64,000 nt of DNA. Origin: Capitulum mitella (Eukaryota; Arthropoda; Thecostraca; Pollicipedomorpha; Pollicipedidae). Positions 1-62,905 of the stretch are shown in pieces; within the stretch, counting starts at the first letter, position 1; every line of letters starts with the position of its first letter. Where the stretch lies: NCBI GenBank assembly GCA_030062745.1, contig CP099843.1:21736583-21800582 (forward strand). Reading direction: 5' to 3'. The position numbers and the translations under genes were made by a program. The notes beneath the pieces were generated by a model. It saw only the letters and a program-made list of their open reading frames with translations. It made no database searches and had not been told where the DNA came from.

Positions 1-186
1 GAGGTTCGGCTGCAGTACCGGGACGTGGCCGGCGACATTTTCGGCGGTCAGGCTCGCCGCAACGAGCTCGTGATCCGCGTGCAGCCCGGCGAGGCCGTCT
101 ACGTCAAGATGATGACCAAGAAGCCGGGCATGACGTTCGACATGGAGGAAACGGAGCTGGACCTCACCTACGCCGCCCGCTACAAG
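1..186 (+). CDS. G6PD: G6PD exon (partial at left edge)
   Basis: It is open from base 1 in frame 1 and encodes 62 residues ending YAARYK. The donor is AAG|GTCAGT at 186/187, phase 0. The exon starts before the window. The intron that follows is only 186 bp. Confidence 0.95.
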
Positions 187-1636
187 GTCAGTCGGTCATG
201 ATGTCGGACCGTCGCCTGGTCTGGTCGGCCGGGTTATCACTGGTCGTAAATGACAGCGATTAGGTTCGGGTGACCCTGAGGTGGCCTTATTGCTCCAGAC
301 GACCAGACCTGCGGCTCGTGACCGGATTAGACCGGACCAGTCGGAGCAGTCTGACATCGTCAATCTCGGCAGAACCTGCGTCTGCCGGACGCCTACGAGC
401 GGCTCGTGCTGGACGTGTTCTGCGGCTCCCAGATGCACTTTGTGCGCTCGGACGAGCTGGCGCAGGCCTGGCGCATCTTCACGCCGCTGCTGCGTCAGAT
501 AGAGAGCGACAGGCCCACGCCGGTGCCGTACAGGTCAGTGTGGTCACTGCGTCCCAGGACAGCGGCATCAACTTCGTGGTGTGAAGACCACTGGAGGTCT
601 TGCGATGTTGGTCAACTCCTACATTACAAAAACGCTATTTTAATTGGCAGCTCGACGGAGTTCATGCCCGCAGCCTGAGAGGCCCGCTGCCGCTTAGCGA
701 ACGAACTGTTGTCTGACAATAGCCTGGTGACGATTGCATTCGAAAACGGCAACTGTGGACGTTTTTTTGCGACATTTTCCGAACTCACAGAACCTCCGAC
801 TGCTACATTACACCCTAAATGTGGTAAATTCGAGTACCCTCCGACCGCAAGGCACACAGATGTTTGGTCGAGTGGGGGCAGGTTGGCTTGGATGCAAGGT
901 TGGACAGTCTTACGTTGATATTTTCAGATATCTCTGGGGTCAGACAACCAGGAGACCGCCTGATGCGGTTAACTTGAATTGTGCTTTATAGTTGTCGGTG
1001 AAAGTAGATGCTGAGCTACAAACCATCACAAATCATTTGTCCAGGCAGAACCAGTCATCTAAGCAAAGAAACAGCGAATCCAACCAGTTCTGAGCTCCGT
1101 CTGTCAGCGTGCAAAAGGCGTTAAATGAAACCAACTGAAGGACATCGGACTGCAGTGGTTAGTTGTTACATGACAGGGAGCAACGACAAAAAGTCCCTAA
1201 CACTCTGATGGGGCTCAGATCCATTACATAGGACAAATGTCTATCGAAGACGAAAGATATTCTCAGTCCTGCATTGCGGAGATGGCGACCTGAGCGAGGA
1301 CGAAATAGAAGGGGACTGCCTCCGAGAAGCACTGGCTCGTGACTGTGGAGTGAAATGGTTACCTGTGCCCTGCGTTTTCAGGTTCGGCTCCAGAAGTCCT
1401 GTCTCCGATGGAGTCGGTGACTGTGGACTTGAGTAGTGACCTGTGCGGCGTTTTCAGGCTCGGCTCCAGAGGTCCTATCTCCGATGGAGTCGGTGACTGT
1501 GAACTTGAGTAGTGACCTGTGCGGCGTTTTCAGGTTCGGCTCCCGAGGTCCCCGGGAAGCGGATGAGCTCAGTCAGCGGCTGGGGTTCAAATACACGGGC
1601 ACCTACCAGTGGAACGGCGACGGAGCTCGCCTCTGA
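1..1636 (+). CDS. G6PD: Glucose-6-phosphate 1-dehydrogenase, C-terminal three exons (5' end outside window)
   Basis: This enzyme makes NADPH in the first step of the cytosolic pentose phosphate pathway. Three exons (1-186, 373-533, 1534-1636) join in phase to encode about the last 149 residues. Recognisable G6PD blocks in order are [87 protein letters not shown] and a terminus ending [15 protein letters not shown]. In human G6PD the C-terminal Tyr and Trp at the matching places contact the structural NADP+, and both are kept here. The substrate and catalytic NADP+ sites lie upstream of the window. The gene converges on TIKI, which lies on the opposite strand. The odd feature is a tandem triplication of the last acceptor (see 1375-1556). 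Confidence 0.96.
373..533 (+). CDS. G6PD: G6PD penultimate coding exon
   Basis: The acceptor is CTCGGCAG|AACCTGCG at 372/373 and the donor is TACAG|GTCAGT at 533/534. The 161 bp encode [11 protein letters not shown] through PTPVPYR, ending in phase 2. The phase fits exactly with the exon at 1534, where AG|G completes an arginine codon. Confidence 0.95.
534..1533 (+). other. G6PD last intron, 1,000 bp
   Basis: This is spliced sequence between the last two coding exons. Up to about 1340 I see no conserved open frame or recognisable repeat. The final 160 bp contain two extra copies of the acceptor region, described separately. Confidence 0.85.
1375..1556 (+). repeat. 76-bp tandem repeat carrying the splice acceptor and exon start, three copies
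   Basis: Copies begin at 1375, 1451 and 1527. Each starts TTTTCAG followed by a G6PD-like exon start (GTTCGGCTCC or GCTCGGCTCC). The first two copies are near identical over all 76 bp; the third runs into the true last exon. Predicted acceptors fall at 1381/1382, 1457/1458 and 1533/1534. Read in the phase left by the exon at 373-533, copy 1 gives 17 residues after the shared arginine and stops at 1434-1436; copy 2 gives 17 and stops at 1510-1512. Confidence 0.9.
1534..1636 (+). CDS. G6PD: G6PD last coding exon with stop codon
   Basis: The acceptor is GTTTTCAG|GTTCGG and the exon completes an arginine codon in phase 2. It encodes [18 protein letters not shown] and then the tyrosine- and tryptophan-containing tail, ending at TGA 1634-1636. 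It is the only one of the three tandem acceptor copies that yields the full conserved C-terminus, so it is taken as the canonical exon. Confidence 0.94.
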
Positions 1637-18900: not shown

Positions 18901-21900
18901 CATCATCTTCTGCGTTTGGCCGCCAGGCCCCAGAAAGGGCCCCAGTGAGGGCTTGCCGTCGGGTCTGAGAAGCTGCTGGCCTGATAAGGCGGCTACTAAT
19001 CTGCGAGACCTGCTGAATATCTCCGGCCGACGGTATGGAAAGCCGTGCGCCGTCCCAGGCCGTCACTGCCGCCTGTCGGACCGGTGAGATCTCTTGGCGC
19101 TGCGTCTCGCTCTGCCTGGACCGTGATCCGCCGCCTGGACCGTGTCCTGCGAGCCGCTGCCTGGATCGTGTCCTGTGAGCTGCCGACGTGCGCTGCCACC
19201 GGCGGCGCATACCGCGCACGAACAGCGGCAGCCGACCGAGGCCGGCCAAGAGAACACAGACGTCCGCAGAGGTGACACCGGCCGACCACAGACGCCCGCA
19301 GAGGTGTCACCGGACGACCACAGACGCCCACAGAGGTGTCACGGGCCGACCACAGACGTCCACAGAGGTGTCACCGACCGATCACAGACGCCCACAGAGG
19401 TGTCACCGGCCGATCACAGAGGTGTCATCGGCCGACCACAGACTTCCGCAGATGTGTCACCGACTGACCAAAGATGTCCAAAGAGGTGTCACTGGCCGAC
19501 CACAGACGTCCTCAGAGGTATTACCGGCCGATCACAGGCGTCCACAGAGGCGTCACTGGCCGACCACAGACGTCCACAGAGGTGTTATCGGCCGACCACA
19601 GACGTTTACAGAGGTGTCACCGGTCGACAACAGATGTCCACAGAGACGTCACTGACCGACTGGGCGCAGACCTCGACAGAGGTATCACCGACTGACCAGA
19701 CGTGTATGTCCAGACAGGTGTCCTAGACCGGCCGGACACAGGACTCAATCGGACACAAATGTCCACAGATGTGACACCGGCTAGCTAGGGACATCAACAG
19801 AGCTATCACCGGCCGGCCGGACGCAGCACACGGTCATTCACCGGCCCCTTGGCGCCTCACGCAAGGATCGCAGCGAAATCTGTCCGGCCCCTCCGTAATG
19901 TGCCGGCTCCGGCCAAGCGCCAGACTTTGATGATCTCACTCGAGAGGATCAGGAAAGCATCAACGAACAGAATACTCAGAATAACGCGGAATCTTAGGTG
20001 CTAAGCAGACGGTAAGAGGGTCGTCGACTTGTAGATCGGCTAGTTTGACGTGAAACGTTGACAACGATGCAACTGTGCTGCTGAGGTCCGTGCAGTTCGC
20101 AGGTTCATTCTGACAGTCTAACTGGGAAGTAATGACTCCGAGACTAGTTCCACGAAGGCTTGCGATGCCGCTACGAAACCAATTTTTAAACCAGAGTCTG
20201 GTGCGTCATTTCTTAGATATTATAGAATTTCAAAAAACTAAGGTGCTAGTACCAGGCTTTCTCAAAGCTCAGGCTTCCATAGGCTATCCGGCTGGAGTCA
20301 GGCATTGATAACTTCAGCCTGCAGCTACCAATGACTGCAATTTGCAGGCATTTCAGCAGGGAGGTCTTGAGTCCGGGCAAAAGTTATCTTACGCATACTG
20401 CTCGCAGTGCACCATAGCATGTATGACCAAACAGTGCCCCTGGATCGCAGCAGTTTCTTGATTCGTCGCTTGCTTATCAACCGGATACTCCCCGGATCAC
20501 AAAAGCACACTTGTCGTACGCAACAAATGCAAGTTTTGATGATATTTGCAAGAGCTGGGCACTCGAGTACATCAGCATTACAGCCGGTGCTGTATGTAAA
20601 CACCATGACATTAAATCCGCAATTAGAAGCCCCTCAAGCTTTCTCACGGAAGCTCCGACTAGATATCTGAAGTTTCCAGGAACATGTCCGATAACAAGCA
20701 AAAACAGGTTCTTCCGGCTTGAAAGGTGCTTCTGAACCCACCGATGCATCGGCCATGAAATCGGACTTCACGCAAGGGGCGATAAGAATGATTCCAGGCA
20801 AGACTTCTAAAGGATGGGCCGAAAGACCTATTCTAACGTTCTTGAGTTGACTTCCCACGGCTGCAGATTTCCAAAAATTATTAAGAGACATCTGACAATG
20901 ATTCCAGACCGATTCTTTCCAGTCATAGGGATAATTTTGCCACTTCATTCCAGACCTAGGCCTAATGTTAGTATTAATGAAAGCAACAGCAGCTAGATCC
21001 TCTCCCCCCCCGTTCCCGAGATGTTCAGTCATGCCTGTCCTATCGCTTGCATGTCACCACTGCGTCCCACTCATGACCCAAGTCCACCGCTATTCGCATT
21101 CCATACACGTAATAAACGCCTCACGGCAGCCGCTTCTGTGGGGCAGGCCATGCAGTTCCAATCGACTTTATTTTCTTATGCGCAGTACAGGCCCAGCCGC
21201 CAGACATGCCGTCTTGGCTCGAACGTTCTCGTCGGGCCGGTGGCAATGATGAAAGGCAGACGAGAAGCAGGAGCGCAGTGACACTAATTGTTACTCACCC
21301 ACAACCACCCACACCATACCGAACTTCGCGTAGTGAAAGCTCCTTCTCCCGCCACCCCACCGCCCATCCCGCCCATCATGGGAAATCAGGAAAGCTATGT
21401 CGCACGGACAGCTTCATAGATACTGCAGACGTGCTTCTTCGGAAAGCAATGGCATTGCTTACACCCCTCACCGTTCCGCCAGTGCGACAGACCACCTGCT
21501 AGGTCATCCACCACCAGAGCCCGCAGTCCAGAAAGGTACCGCCGCAGTGCCAATGGAACTCCTGCCAGAGGCCGGGTGTTCCGAGATGACAGCGCGTGAC
21601 CCCCGTCACCAGCAGGCGTGACGCCGGCCCCGACCGTGACGTGCCGCGGCACCGTCCTCACCGGTATCTGCGACGAGTCGCGTCGGAAGATGACCTCGTC
21701 CAGGTCGCCGCAGTTGTAGTGCCGGATCAGGTCGTCGGTGGTGTAGGCCGGCTCCTCCTGGCCGGCTCGGATGCTCTCGTGCTGGTTCAGCGTCTGGTTC
21801 AGCGCGAACACCACCTGGCGGAGCAGCGGCGGACGCGTCACGCGCGGCCGTCACGAGTCGTCACGGATCCCGGCCGCCGACGGGTCGCCGTCACCAGGAC

Positions 21901-33900: not shown

Positions 33901-35262
33901 CGCAGGCGATATGGGCACATGAATGGGTTTGACTAAAATGTGCACCTCATTATAAAGTTTGCGCATATCTTGGTCACGCGGTGTCCCTTCAAAGCGAACG
34001 CTTTGAATTATCAGCTCATGAAACAAGGCTAATGGTTTATTCAATTCGCACACTGTTGCATCATGCCGACGCCCGATTTTCGTGTGCCACTGATAGCACT
34101 TCGATGAAAAGCAAATCACCGGAGCAGAATCTCAATGAAACGATCTCGGAGGCGCGCGGCAGGCGTAAGTCCAGATCTGGTAGCCAAATGAGAGGATCTC
34201 GGGCGTCTATACGTTGATTCGCGAGCTTGCAAGGAGCGCGTCACAGTGATCTCTCGTCGGGATCAAAGAGTGCTCAGCCCGGCCCGCGACGATAAGGAAA
34301 GTACATTCAGCGGCGGACACGAAAACGATGTCAATGGCGACTCAAATCGTCATTGTAAAAACCCTTCGGCCGATGTTATTTGATCATTGCGCTTGGGTTG
34401 GGTAATCAAATGCGTCGAGGTGTTTTAAAAGCATTTGCAGCCCCTTCTAGATGAGACATACCTTGGCACAGACACCAACCACCGCCAATGTTCTAGCCGA
34501 ATGATGTTCTCGACGCCCCCAGCTCATTTTCTTCCGCACTGGACCCCGATTTTACGTAAGCATCCCTTCCAGTTCGCAAGGATCAAAGCAAACTGGCGGC
34601 GATGCGAAACCGGAAAAAACACGCCAAGTCAGTCTGCCTGCTGACCGAGCTCTGGGCCCCGGCCGTCTCTGATCCAGCACACAGCGCCGCCCGCCCGCAC
34701 CCACCTGCGATATGTTGAGCCCGTTGAGCGGCAGACACTGCTCCTCCACCTTCTCGACGGCGCCGGTGCGCTTGTTCCGCTTCTCGGCCTCCAGGGCCAG
34801 GTACAGGTCCAGCACGGGCACCCCGCGCGAGCGGACGTCGCTCTCGGTCAGCGTGTTCACCATCAGCATCACCCAGACGGGCCGCTTCTGCCGCCAGTTG
34901 CCGGTGATGGCGTTGAACAGGTAGTCGGCGTAGAGGCCACGCCCGCGCTGGTCGGCCGTCATCCAGAGAGGCATCATGTGGCGCACGTAGTCCAGGTGCT
35001 TCTGCAGTCTCCGGTAGATGTCGGTGGGGAGCAGCTGGTCCAGCCGCGCGCCGGGCGGCAGCAGCTGGCACTTGGTCAGCGCCGAGACCGTCCGCGAGTC
35101 GGTCAGGTCCAGCTCGAAGTACACCGAGTCGGCCAGGTGGAAGGCGCGCTTCACGTTCTCCGGCACGTAGTCCCACACGCGGTTGTAGGGCACGTGGATC
35201 GTGCCGAAGAAGTAGGACGGAGGCTTGGCCTCCACCTTCCACATAAACGACGACTTCCGCGA
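3805..35262 (-). CDS. TIKI: TIKI-type Wnt-inactivating metalloprotease (TRABD2 family), six exons, signal-peptide exon not found
   Basis: TIKI proteins are membrane-tethered metalloproteases of the TraB/PrgY fold that clip the N-terminus of Wnt and block its signalling. Exons at 35262-34705, 21814-21662, 15873-15678, 5301-5211, 4472-4257 and 3988-3805 join in phase to about 465 residues. Counting from the first exon found, the first GX2H motif (GTIH in [10 protein letters not shown]) is at residues 20-23 and the second (GAGHFLG) has its His at about 304. Between them lie [85 protein letters not shown] and [17 protein letters not shown]. Near the end is the family motif [10 protein letters not shown], then a small-residue stretch and a hydrophobic tail ([14 protein letters not shown]) fitting a GPI or membrane anchor. 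Length and order match vertebrate TIKI proteins of about 500 residues. The signal peptide must lie upstream (above 35262) but could not be fixed. Confidence 0.95.
3989..4256 (-). other. TIKI last intron, 268 bp, with in-frame stop just past the donor
   Basis: GT at 4256-4255 and AG at 3990-3989. The phase fits (ACG AG|C GTG). Reading through the donor gives TGA at once. An earlier CCCCCAG acceptor candidate would place a stop in frame, so the GCATTTCAG site is preferred. Confidence 0.75.
4257..4472 (-). CDS. TIKI: TIKI stalk exon with [10 protein letters not shown]
   Basis: The acceptor is GTGCCCAG|GTACAATC at 4473/4472 and the donor is GACGAG|GTGAGG at 4257/4256. It enters in phase 2, completing an Arg codon, and encodes a basic Arg/Pro-rich stalk followed by [13 protein letters not shown], which matches vertebrate FNDLWVRIED. 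If the donor is not used, the frame reads Arg then TGA at 4253-4255. Confidence 0.92.
4473..5210 (-). other. TIKI intron, 738 bp
   Basis: This lies between the HFLG exon and the C-terminal stalk exon. I see only short purine- and G-rich runs and no conserved frame. Confidence 0.8.
5211..5301 (-). CDS. TIKI: TIKI exon carrying HFLGN, second catalytic motif
   Basis: The acceptor is CTGTTTTCCAG|GCCACTT at 5302/5301 and the donor is CGAAG|GTGAGT at 5211/5210. The 91 bp enter in phase 1 and leave in phase 2. It encodes (G)[19 protein letters not shown] through RERIR. The His completes the second GX2H motif. Confidence 0.95.
8821..8872. repeat. Perfect 20-bp inverted repeat with 12-nt loop
   Basis: The left arm is 8821-8840 (GGTGGTTTTCTGATGGTGTC) and the right arm 8853-8872 is its exact reverse complement. 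The 12-base loop is GATGGTGACACC. It sits in ACC-rich low-complexity DNA inside a TIKI intron. Confidence 0.9.
10013..10145. repeat. Dispersed repeat, copy 1 (partner near 61089-61225)
   Basis: It shares GATTTTCTTAAG, GGAGCTCAGTGTGAACTGAA, TGCAATGGTTT and GGGCCCGGGC in the same order and spacing with the stretch at 61089-61225. Identity is roughly three quarters by eye. A G/C-rich end follows both. Family unknown. Confidence 0.75.
10220..10600. repeat. GT-rich minisatellite with (GT)n run
   Basis: Imperfect repeats of GTGTCCGTAGTCTGGGTGT-like units run through 10220-10560 and lead into a pure GT run at about 10566-10588. Open frames on both strands are by-products of the repeat. Confidence 0.75.
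12786..12935. repeat. 75-bp tandem duplication
   Basis: Two copies with CCACCGGCC starting at 12791 and 12866 share CACGGTCAGGTCTTCTGATG and GTCAGTGAAGGAGACG with few differences. Confidence 0.85.
15678..15873 (-). CDS. TIKI: TIKI exon ending in FAFGA|G
   Basis: The acceptor is GTGCCGGCAG|CCGTCC at 15874/15873 and the donor is GCGCAG|GTCAGT at 15678/15677. The 196 bp end in phase 1. It encodes an Ala-rich lead, then [20 protein letters not shown] and FFFAFGA. The glycine of the second GX2H motif is split by the intron that follows. Confidence 0.95.
15895..16050. repeat. About 48-bp imperfect tandem repeat, three units
   Basis: Units share ACAGGTGACCGG followed by a GCTG-GATCACACGGA segment. 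It lies directly upstream of a TIKI exon on the transcribed strand, within the intron. Confidence 0.65.
19250..19720. repeat. 32-bp minisatellite, about 14 units
   Basis: The unit is CAGAGGTGTCACCGGCCGAC followed by CACAGACGTCCA. The CAGAGG core recurs at 19331, 19363 and 19395, exactly 32 bp apart. Because 32 is not a multiple of 3, all three + frames stay open and show a 32-residue period. It lies in a TIKI intron. Confidence 0.92.
21662..21814 (-). CDS. TIKI: TIKI exon [13 protein letters not shown]
   Basis: The acceptor is GCTCCGCCAG|GTGGTG at 21815/21814 and the donor is ATACCG|GTGAGG at 21662/21661. It has 51 codons in phase 0. It encodes [19 protein letters not shown] through [12 protein letters not shown] and ends DSSQIP. 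The adjoining text matches vertebrate TIKI, which reads FSQVIFALNQTL across the same junction. Confidence 0.95.
28080..28365 (-). mobile_element. Penelope-like retroelement fossil, reverse transcriptase fragment
   Basis: The - strand shows a block like the [20 protein letters not shown] motif, then the catalytic-loop region in the YxDD context ([15 protein letters not shown]) and [16 protein letters not shown]. These are the order and spacing of reverse transcriptase in Penelope-like elements of invertebrates. Only part of the domain is recognisable; the element is broken and looks old. The ends were not found. Confidence 0.7.
28649..28690. repeat. TCTG microsatellite
   Basis: An imperfect CTGT/TCTG run (CTGTCTGTCTGTCTGTCTG then degenerate units). 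Confidence 0.85.
28735..28890. repeat. CT-rich tandem repeat, four to five units
   Basis: Units of about 36 bp share CTCTCTCGCCAGGCAAAGAG and GCCGACCT. Confidence 0.7.
29760..30620. repeat. Degenerate repeat of GATTCCGGTT/GAATCGACTC words around an AT-rich core
   Basis: Words such as GGTTCCGAATTCGACTC and GAATGAGTCGATTCCGGAAC crowd 29770-29915 and again 30470-30600. Between them is a very AT-rich core (29930-30170). A similar word set occurs at 52005-52130. It looks like an old transposon or satellite remnant of unknown family. Confidence 0.4.
31176..31232. repeat. (CGG)n followed by (CCG)n, inverted triplet tract
   Basis: About eight GCG/CGG triplets are followed, after the spacer CGGGACCCT, by about seven CCG triplets. 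The two runs are self-complementary and could form a hairpin with about 21 bp of stem. It lies in a GC-rich block of a TIKI intron. Confidence 0.9.
34705..35262 (-). CDS. TIKI: TIKI exon with first GX2H motif
   Basis: The acceptor is GTCCGTTCCAG|TCGCGG at 35263/35262 and the donor is CGCAG|GTGGGT at 34705/34704. The 186 codons are in phase 0 at both ends. It encodes [30 protein letters not shown] and on to GLNISQ, most of the catalytic N-half. It is the longest and best conserved exon of the gene. Confidence 0.96.
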
Positions 35263-37346: not shown

Positions 37347-38377
37347 TGACTACAAGTTATTTAGTTCGGGCAAAGAAACGCAAGACCAAGAGAGTTCTAG
37401 TATTATAAAACCTTCTAGTTACGTGTTGTAGAATAAGGTCAGGTTGGGCAGGCCAGGTGAGGTACGATGAAACACGTTAAGCTAGGCCAGGTTATAACCA
37501 GAAGATATACAGATTAAATTAGGTTAGGTACCGTCAGGTCGAAAAAGCATGACTGGGATTCTAGACCTTGGGCATCTAGGCCAGCGAAGGTCGCAACATG
37601 TCTGAGCTAGGATGGATGAAGTTCAGGTGTTTTTTTTTTTTTAATTTATTTTTTTTGTCAGGCTAGGTTAAGTTAAATGGTACGAGGTAACAACTTTCAG
37701 AAAATCAGCAGCACTGTGTAATGTGTTCGCAAACGCTTTGGGGTCTTCACTGAGCACGGAGAACGCTAACAAAGAGCTGTGTTGGTAAAGACGCCCGGCG
37801 TTGCCGAACAAGCTGGCTCTTAAGTTTACTAGTTTTCGACTCGTTCGGCCATTTTGCAGACGAATTTTTGCACGCAAACCAAACAAACCTCACTGGAGTA
37901 GGCTCGCATGGATAAACTGAGTGGACTGTGATTAAAATTATAAACCTCTTTTGCAGAATACACAAACAGTCATATATTCATAAATAACCTTTTCTCGTTT
38001 ATGAAAGCGGGACGGAGCACTTTAGCGAGACGTTTGACGTGAGTCATTCTAATATACGCTCTCCATCGCCACATGGTTCGCCGGCAAACAAAAATAAACT
38101 GATCGGACGACACTTTGCCCCATGACAGCGCCGACGGCACACCTAACAGCAGGTCGAGACAATCGCAGAGATGCGCAGGTAGCTCAGCCCCGGATGTTCT
38201 TGCGCCGGGTACCTTCCAGGCGCAAAAAGCGAGCGTGGGCTCTGTGCCCGTCAGTTGCGGCATTTACAGCCTCGTTTATATAAAGCGCCGTCCGTTTTTC
38301 GGCCCATCCGTCTGGCTCACCTGTTTGTCGCAGTACTCGGGCCGGCGCGACCTCCGCGTCTCGGCGACCCCCGCAAA

Positions 38378-39030
38378 AACGGCCACCGTCACCAGCTGAA
38401 ACAGAGGGCCACCGTTAACGGCTGAAACAAACCGGCCACTGTCACCAGTTGAAACAGAAGGCCACCGTTAACGGCTGAAAGAACCGGCCACCGTTAACGG
38501 CTGACACAAACTGGCCACCGTTAACGGATGACACAAACCGACCACCGTCACCAGCTGAAACAGAGGGCCACCGTTAAAGGCTGAAACAAACCGGCCACTG
38601 TCACCAGCTGAAACACAAGGCACCGTTAACGGCTGGAAAAACTGGCCACCGTTAACGGCTGAAAAAACCGGCCACCGTTAACGGCTGACACAAACCGACC
38701 ACCGTCACCAGCTGAAACAGAGGGCCACCGTTACCAACTGAAACAGAGGGCCACCGTTAACGGCTGAAAAAACAGCCACCGTTAACGGCTGAAACAAACC
38801 GGCCACCGTCACCAGCTGAAACAGAGGGCCACCGTTAACGGCTGAAACAAACTGGTCACCGTCGCCAGCTGGAACAGACGGCCATCGTTAACGGCCGAAA
38901 CAAACTGGCGACCGTCACCAGGTGAAACAAACAGTCGACCGCCACCCACTGAAGCAAACAGGCGAATGCCACCAGTTGAAACAACCGGGTGACCGTCACC
39001 AACTGAAACACAGACCATCAACAATTGAAA
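38378..39030. repeat. About 27-bp minisatellite with CCGTTAACGG palindromes
   Basis: About 24 units of two kinds mix: GGCCACCGTTAACGGCTGAA plus ACAAACC, and GGCCACCGTCACCAGCTGAA plus ACAGAG. The 10-bp palindrome CCGTTAACGG occurs ten times intact and twice with one change. CAGCTG occurs in most of the second kind. A shorter array of CATAAC-CC words follows at 39050-39110. Confidence 0.92.
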
Positions 39031-62644: not shown

Positions 62645-62905
62645 ATGCCGCTGTTCGGGCGGGCGCGGCGGCGCGGCCCGGACGGGCCCGACAGCCCGGT
62701 GAACGGCCACCGGGCCGGCTCGGACAGCTCGGGGGACGGGCCGGCGTCGGGCCACGAGCCGCGGGCCGACTCGCCGGCCCGGCCCAAGCTGGTGTTCCAC
62801 TGCCAGCTGGCGCACGGCAGCCCCACCGGCATCATATCCGGCTTCACCAACGTCAAGGAGCTCTACCAGAAGATCGCCGACTGCTACGACATGCCGGTCT
62901 CGGAG
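62645..62905 (+). CDS. GIPC: GIPC PDZ-domain endocytic adaptor, first coding exon
   Basis: GIPC proteins link receptors, through a central PDZ domain, to myosin VI on endocytic vesicles. This exon gives 87 residues. The start [10 protein letters not shown] resembles vertebrate MPLGLGRRKK. A Gly/Ser/Pro-rich lead of about 45 residues follows, then the opening of the conserved GH1 domain, [19 protein letters not shown] and [20 protein letters not shown], close to human [14 protein letters not shown] and [15 protein letters not shown]. The donor is TCGGAG|GTGAGT at 62905/62906, phase 0. In the family the next exon begins with VMFCTLN-like sequence; it, the PDZ domain and the GH2 domain lie beyond the window. 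The start codon was chosen because it begins the family-like N-terminus. Confidence 0.94.

Follow-up and report, generated by a model that had tools for sequence, protein, structure and literature searches.

A tandem duplication across the boundary between the final intron and the final exon of a G6PD gene in the barnacle Capitulum mitella has, almost certainly, given that gene three splice acceptors in a row. We assign a probability of roughly two in three to the reading that the array arose in two steps, that its acceptors would be capable of leaky use, that the normal C terminus is kept, and that the arrangement is tolerated, not selected. Because the copies carry near-identical acceptor-side sequence, splicing from exon 10 (donor at 533) could in principle lead to any of three positions: 1382, 1458 and 1534. 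Transcripts using 1534 would suffice for the normal tail to persist, and those using 1382 or 1458 would encode a G6PD shorter by 16 residues and devoid of the equivalents of human Tyr503 and Trp509. Leaky splicing to such tails is plausible, and the arrangement may be tolerated, perhaps because a second G6PD gene is unaffected.

A tandem array at the end of the final G6PD intron

The window that we analyzed, a stretch of 64 kb (C5:21736583-21800582) from a 477-Mb genome in 16 contigs, starts inside a G6PD gene. The gene identity given in the preliminary description is borne out by PDB matches, which are G6PD throughout the top rows (best 5ukw, E = 3.7e-241; 6e08, a human G6PD entry [PMC11448927], E = 5.9e-240). 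Exons 2 to 11 of this gene join to an open frame of 476 codons; exon 1 was chosen by motif among two candidates, with the start codon not located. All introns of this gene and of its counterpart on contig C4 were placed by conservation, and the smallest of the 19 introns measured in the two genes, C5 intron 1 included, is 186 nt. AATAAA signals lie at 2648 and 2785.

The three acceptor AGs, 76 bp apart, each close an occurrence of GCGTTTTCAG and are each followed by a copy of the start of exon 11 (Table 1; the slash in motifs marks the splice junction). Direct reading of the sequence and a TRF run, which reports a single array (1372-1551, period 76, 2.4 copies, 94% matches, 0% indels), agree with the acceptor positions, the spacing and the exon-start copies listed in the preliminary description. 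The repeat unit consists of the last 58 nt of the final intron plus 18 nt from the start of the final exon, and its duplication copied a splice acceptor twice. Four of the 76 bases differ between the two units, and the 18-nt exon-start copies each match the real start of exon 11 at 16 bases. The preliminary description had not recognized that the duplication spans an intron-exon boundary, nor that an older, diverged copy of the intron end precedes it. The repeat is well beyond chance, and a DNA search of the 477-Mb genome gave, among its best-scoring candidates, no match to 1306-1533 other than at this locus.

Table 1. Features of the 3' part of the C5 G6PD gene, in window coordinates
Feature	Coordinates	Strand	Remarks
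G6PD exon 9, in-window part	1..186	+	exon spans C5:21736563-21736768 and starts 20 bp before the window; donor AAG/GTCAGT
G6PD exon 10	373..533	+	donor CAG/GTCAGT; translation aligned to solved G6PD
Intron 10	534..1533	+	1000 nt; placed by the conserved tail
Older, diverged partial copy of the intronic stretch in the unit, up to acceptor 1	1339..1381	+	33 of 43 aligned columns identical
Acceptor AG 1	1380..1381	+	14-position score 9.59; 26-position score 8.07
Repeat unit 1	1382..1457	+	18-nt copy of exon 11 start, then copy of intron end; in-frame stop TAG 1434-1436
Acceptor AG 2	1456..1457	+	14-position score 9.77; 26-position score 7.18
Repeat unit 2	1458..1533	+	72 of 76 bases as in unit 1; in-frame stop TAG 1510-1512; exon-start copy begins GC, not GT
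Acceptor AG 3, leading to the conserved tail	1532..1533	+	14-position score 9.77; 26-position score 11.09
G6PD exon 11, coding part	1534..1636	+	stop TGA 1634-1636; begins with the third, partial copy (18 nt)

Assemblies are prone to error at short tandem repeats, and the array could in principle be such an error. The copies differ from one another, however, and the older copy of the intron end differs more, a pattern that stutter would not give; we consider an assembly error extremely unlikely.

Arrays of comparable size are not rare on contigs C4 and C5. Under fixed criteria (period of 40 to 150 bp, at least 1.8 copies, at least 85% match), we counted eight in 200 kb of background, sampled as 20 random regions that all lie on C4 or C5 and of which 6 hold at least one; the same criteria return five within the 64-kb window. 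With tandem duplications of this size being common, some would be expected to fall on splice acceptors. Elsewhere in the window, a long array of about 24 copies of 26- to 27-bp units occupies 38376-39010, and a 32-bp array of 13 copies at 19255-19660 overlaps stop-to-stop open frames of 199 and 158 aa.

The second G6PD gene

A second G6PD gene on contig C4, also missing from the preliminary description, matches the C5 gene in exon lengths and intron positions over exons 2 to 11; its exon 1 was not found within the genomic stretch examined for that gene. It has the same final intron in the same phase, with a single acceptor before the last exon and no repeat, and the repeat therefore most simply arose in the C5 copy. 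Across the whole gene the two copies differ with a dS of 0.80 and a dN of 0.11.

The pair apparently stems from a block or whole-genome duplication. A neighboring gene (C5:21771287, minus strand; C4:25266580, plus strand; 92% identity) is present on both contigs in the same relative order and orientation, which argues for duplication of a block; a gene at C5:21799353 also has a C4 partner, but this lies about 8 Mb away. Barnacles are described as having 16 chromosomes, with paired chromosomes derived from whole-genome duplication, and the Ks peaks of paralogs in two barnacle species stand at 0.8 and 1 (PMC11331182). The genome analyzed here fits that of a thoracican barnacle, and the many introns of its G6PD genes, together with their resemblance to human G6PD, mark an animal.

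Three exons of the window also merit record. Exon 9 (C5:21736563-21736768 and C4:25301100-25301305) is 94.7% identical between the two G6PD genes, and the other nine exons compared are 74 to 83% identical. Silent differences are far fewer in exon 9, at about 6 of 46 sites vs 157 of 287 (Fisher p = 6e-8, rounded counts), which suggests either gene conversion confined to one exon or an exon under strong constraint. On the minus strand, the exon at window positions 34705-35235 (C5:21771287, the neighboring gene above), which has the 92% identical partner near the second G6PD gene on C4, resembles a TIKI-type metalloprotease. On the plus strand, the exon at 62771-62905 (C5:21799353), which resembles GIPC-type PDZ proteins, has an 80% identical partner at 17.28 Mb on C4; the two contigs thus share more than one pair.

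Origin and age of the array

The 43 bases that end at acceptor 1 align with the intronic part of the unit, with two of the 43 columns being gaps. No shuffle of 2,000 reaches the alignment score of 35, and if the last 10 bases are removed, the remaining score of 25 is reached by 2 of 5,000. Of the 58 intronic bases in the unit, roughly the first 17 have no alignment upstream of acceptor 1, and a still older copy was not found further up intron 10, where the best score was 17 and 144 of 300 shuffles did as well. The simplest history would comprise two duplications, in which the older separated the first intron end from the remainder and the younger made units 1 and 2.

By hand calculation, the differences between copies 1 and 2 correspond to a Jukes-Cantor distance of 0.055; the older intron-end copies differ at 8 of 41 ungapped columns, a distance of 0.23, counted only where they align. 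Scaled to the dS of the gene pair, the younger duplication would be about 1/15, and the older at least about 1/4, as old as the pair, an estimate that is weak because the sites are few and the copies may have undergone conversion. An array that may be this old sits poorly with a plainly harmful change, and its age counts against our preferred reading of a leaky, tolerated duplication.

Strength of the three acceptors

More than one acceptor-like site lies downstream of the donor at 533, an arrangement that, judged by sequence, is expected of candidate tandem alternative 3' splice sites. For scoring, we trained a 14-position model on the remaining 19 acceptors in both G6PD genes, at introns inferred from conservation; it rates the three acceptors alike and within the range of those 19 (−1.83 to 10.23). 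An unrelated AG at 1107 (9.98) outscores all three, which take ranks two to four out of 77 AGs in 536-1640, so that sites cannot be defined by this score alone. The third acceptor is favored by a 26-position score. We prefer the 14-position score, since far positions are noisy with 19 training sites, and report both in Table 1. The pyrimidine content before the AG is 0.75, 0.60 and 0.60 for acceptors 1 to 3, and 0.45 to 0.80 in 20 inferred acceptors; within 60 nt of any of the three there is no full yUnAy branch motif, only shorter UnAy matches. The last 10 bases before the end of acceptor 1 are unchanged while their flank has diverged (column-shuffle probability 0.049, for a test picked post hoc), and this preservation might hint at use of the site.

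The preference of the 26-position score for acceptor 3 would favor normal splicing, and it too counts against the leaky reading, as do the small training set, the higher-scoring AG at 1107 and the lack of a full branch motif. Taken further, the preference accords with a scenario in which the upstream acceptors are silent: only 1534 would be used, defined by later parts of the exon or by the polyadenylation site, and the repeat would be filler within the intron. The copies do hold just 18 nt of real exon, and exon 11 has a dN/dS of about 0.19. The 14-position score, however, is equal for all three sites, and in human-cell reporters tandem acceptors of equal strength are described as competing without order preference (PMC6783452). 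We judge silent acceptors to be rather improbable. The same reporter result led us to drop the idea that the first acceptor wins by coming first (PMC6783452).

Could the units be small introns?

The AG/GT junction at the start of the array lets the units be read as possible small introns, a point likewise absent from the preliminary description. After a splice to 1382, the potential donor CAG/GTTCGG created at acceptor 1 could be joined to 1534 in a second step, which would remove both units and restore the normal tail. Such a cut restores the frame exactly, and the geometry is that of a potato RdRp gene with a new intron (PMC4974935). The donor scores 5.36, and the 19 inferred donors score 3.5 to 11.2 leave-one-out, with 3 of them lower; the inferred donor of intron 8 in the C4 gene, AAG/GTTCGT, is similar. 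It is a weak donor nonetheless, matched or beaten by 39 of the 568 GT sites in the gene span, counting itself and the real donors, and the training set of the donor score includes that same AAG/GTTCGT. Copy 2 begins with GC, and its potential donor CAG/GCTCGG scores 0.07, outside the range of the inferred donors. Introns of 76 or 152 nt would also be shorter than all 19 measured, and direct splicing from 533 to 1534 yields an identical mRNA with no extra step. Nascent introns are therefore an unlikely account of the array.

Predicted effect on the protein

The structural NADP+ of human G6PD has its adenine placed between Tyr503 and Arg487 and its nicotinamide between Trp509 and Tyr401, with Asp421 binding the amide (PMC11448927). 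Equivalents of all five residues are present in the alignment of the normal C5 protein (query number plus 40 gives the human number in the 6e08 row). Joining exon 10 to each acceptor gives the tails exactly as the preliminary description had translated them; the short ones end at a stop inside their unit. From these it had proposed that either upstream acceptor would yield a G6PD without the structural NADP+ site. The alignment upholds the loss of the Tyr503 and Trp509 equivalents in both short tails, which keep the Arg487 equivalent. The interpretation is supported in part, as to the gene, the lost residues and the acceptor scores, with use of the upstream acceptors being a prediction. Dimeric G6PD lacking structural NADP+ is reported to be active though much less stable (PMC11448927), and the short forms would probably be a less stable enzyme. 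Junction-dependent decay of the short-form mRNAs is not predicted, because the exon that holds their stops appears to be the last one.

These properties could also suit regulated alternative splicing, an extension of the preliminary description's reading in which the cell would deliberately select the upstream acceptors and so produce G6PD that lacks the structural NADP+ site: the short tails are in frame, the acceptor scores fall within the range of real sites, the two NADP+-binding equivalents are lost, and the resulting enzyme could remain active. The preliminary description had regarded as telling that the three acceptors share a phase and that stop and length are kept although 76 is not a multiple of three. 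Neither carries weight. The phase is common by descent from copying, and the spacing need not be a multiple of three, because reading of each copy starts at the acceptor that was copied with it and ends at a stop inside the unit. A stop within a copied piece of intron is unremarkable, and we reject its retention as a notable feature; copying alone accounts for the shared phase and stops, which give no evidence for selection.

The substitutions speak in the same direction. Each of the four bases at which copies 1 and 2 differ alters an amino acid, so that, with few sites, the alternative tails show no sign of being constrained as coding sequence; constrained tails should show mostly silent changes, yet four sites are not decisive. 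Between C5 and C4, exon 11 (dN 0.17, dS 0.90) is consistent with constraint on the normal tail, though not unusually strong constraint, since its dN exceeds the gene average of 0.11; most of this divergence may predate the repeat. A literature search on G6PD, alternative splicing and C-terminal isoforms gave no match, a result that weighs weakly against regulated splicing because all five terms were required. No title on barnacles occurs among the literature matching barnacle G6PD, none on the topic among the matches listed for shrimp G6PDH splicing, and a word search of an arthropod G6PDH review found no instance of "splic." The splice forms described for Arabidopsis G6PD5 are N-terminal (PMC9478949). 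On this evidence we regard regulated splicing as quite unlikely.

More elaborate still is a combination of these ideas, in which the array would be a long-lived set of acceptors and donors that caught intron gain in progress and turned it into a switch between stable and labile G6PD, with the second gene supplying constant enzyme. A splice to the first acceptor would lead either to the short enzyme without the structural NADP+ site or, by resplicing, to the normal tail. We hold such a switch to be very improbable.

Relation to known systems and meaning

The closest parallel comes from potato: in an RdRp gene, tandem duplication over the boundary of an intron and an exon produced a new intron, for which there are 106 RNA-seq reads (PMC4974935). 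As in the barnacle gene, the acceptor, the pyrimidine tract and a putative branch site were copied from the parent intron, and a small piece of exon lies in the upstream copy. The potato gene differs in that its donor, GTAAG, came from a cryptic site in the upstream exon and its new intron has RNA support, whereas the barnacle array has two extra copies and carries a potential frame-restoring donor (GTTCGG) at the exon start.

A second precedent is found in Drosophila, where tandem duplication of AG/GY proto-splice sites has been proposed as the source of certain introns (PMC2891723). There, too, a duplicated AG/GY could make the unit an intron of the size of the duplication, with premature stops inside; those introns, however, arose within coding exons (PMC2891723), whereas the unit in C5 G6PD straddles the end of an existing intron. 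In the tandem alternative 3' splice sites of a reporter library, as may hold here, two or more acceptors compete for one donor, but the library covers spacings of 2 to 59 nt with measured usage (PMC6783452), against 76 nt and acceptors predicted from sequence in the barnacle gene.

A ratchet point in recursive splicing is an acceptor joined directly to a strong donor such as GTAAGT. Copies 1 and 3 of the array resemble one in having GT directly after the acceptor. The donor half, however, is a weak GTTCGG, or GCTCGG in copy 2, so that no strong donor of the ratchet kind adjoins the acceptors; the intron, moreover, is only 1000 nt long.

Most likely, then, the array is a tolerated and nonadaptive duplication of a known kind, lying over a splice acceptor. 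Were the upstream acceptors in use, one of two gene copies for a central NADPH-making enzyme would yield forms devoid of the dimer-stabilizing cofactor site, which the second gene cannot do. If the units are removed as small introns, the gene would display intron gain by tandem duplication still under way, with its single-acceptor duplicate as the picture before the event. If neither holds, it would be a plain example of a tandem duplication tolerated over a splice acceptor.
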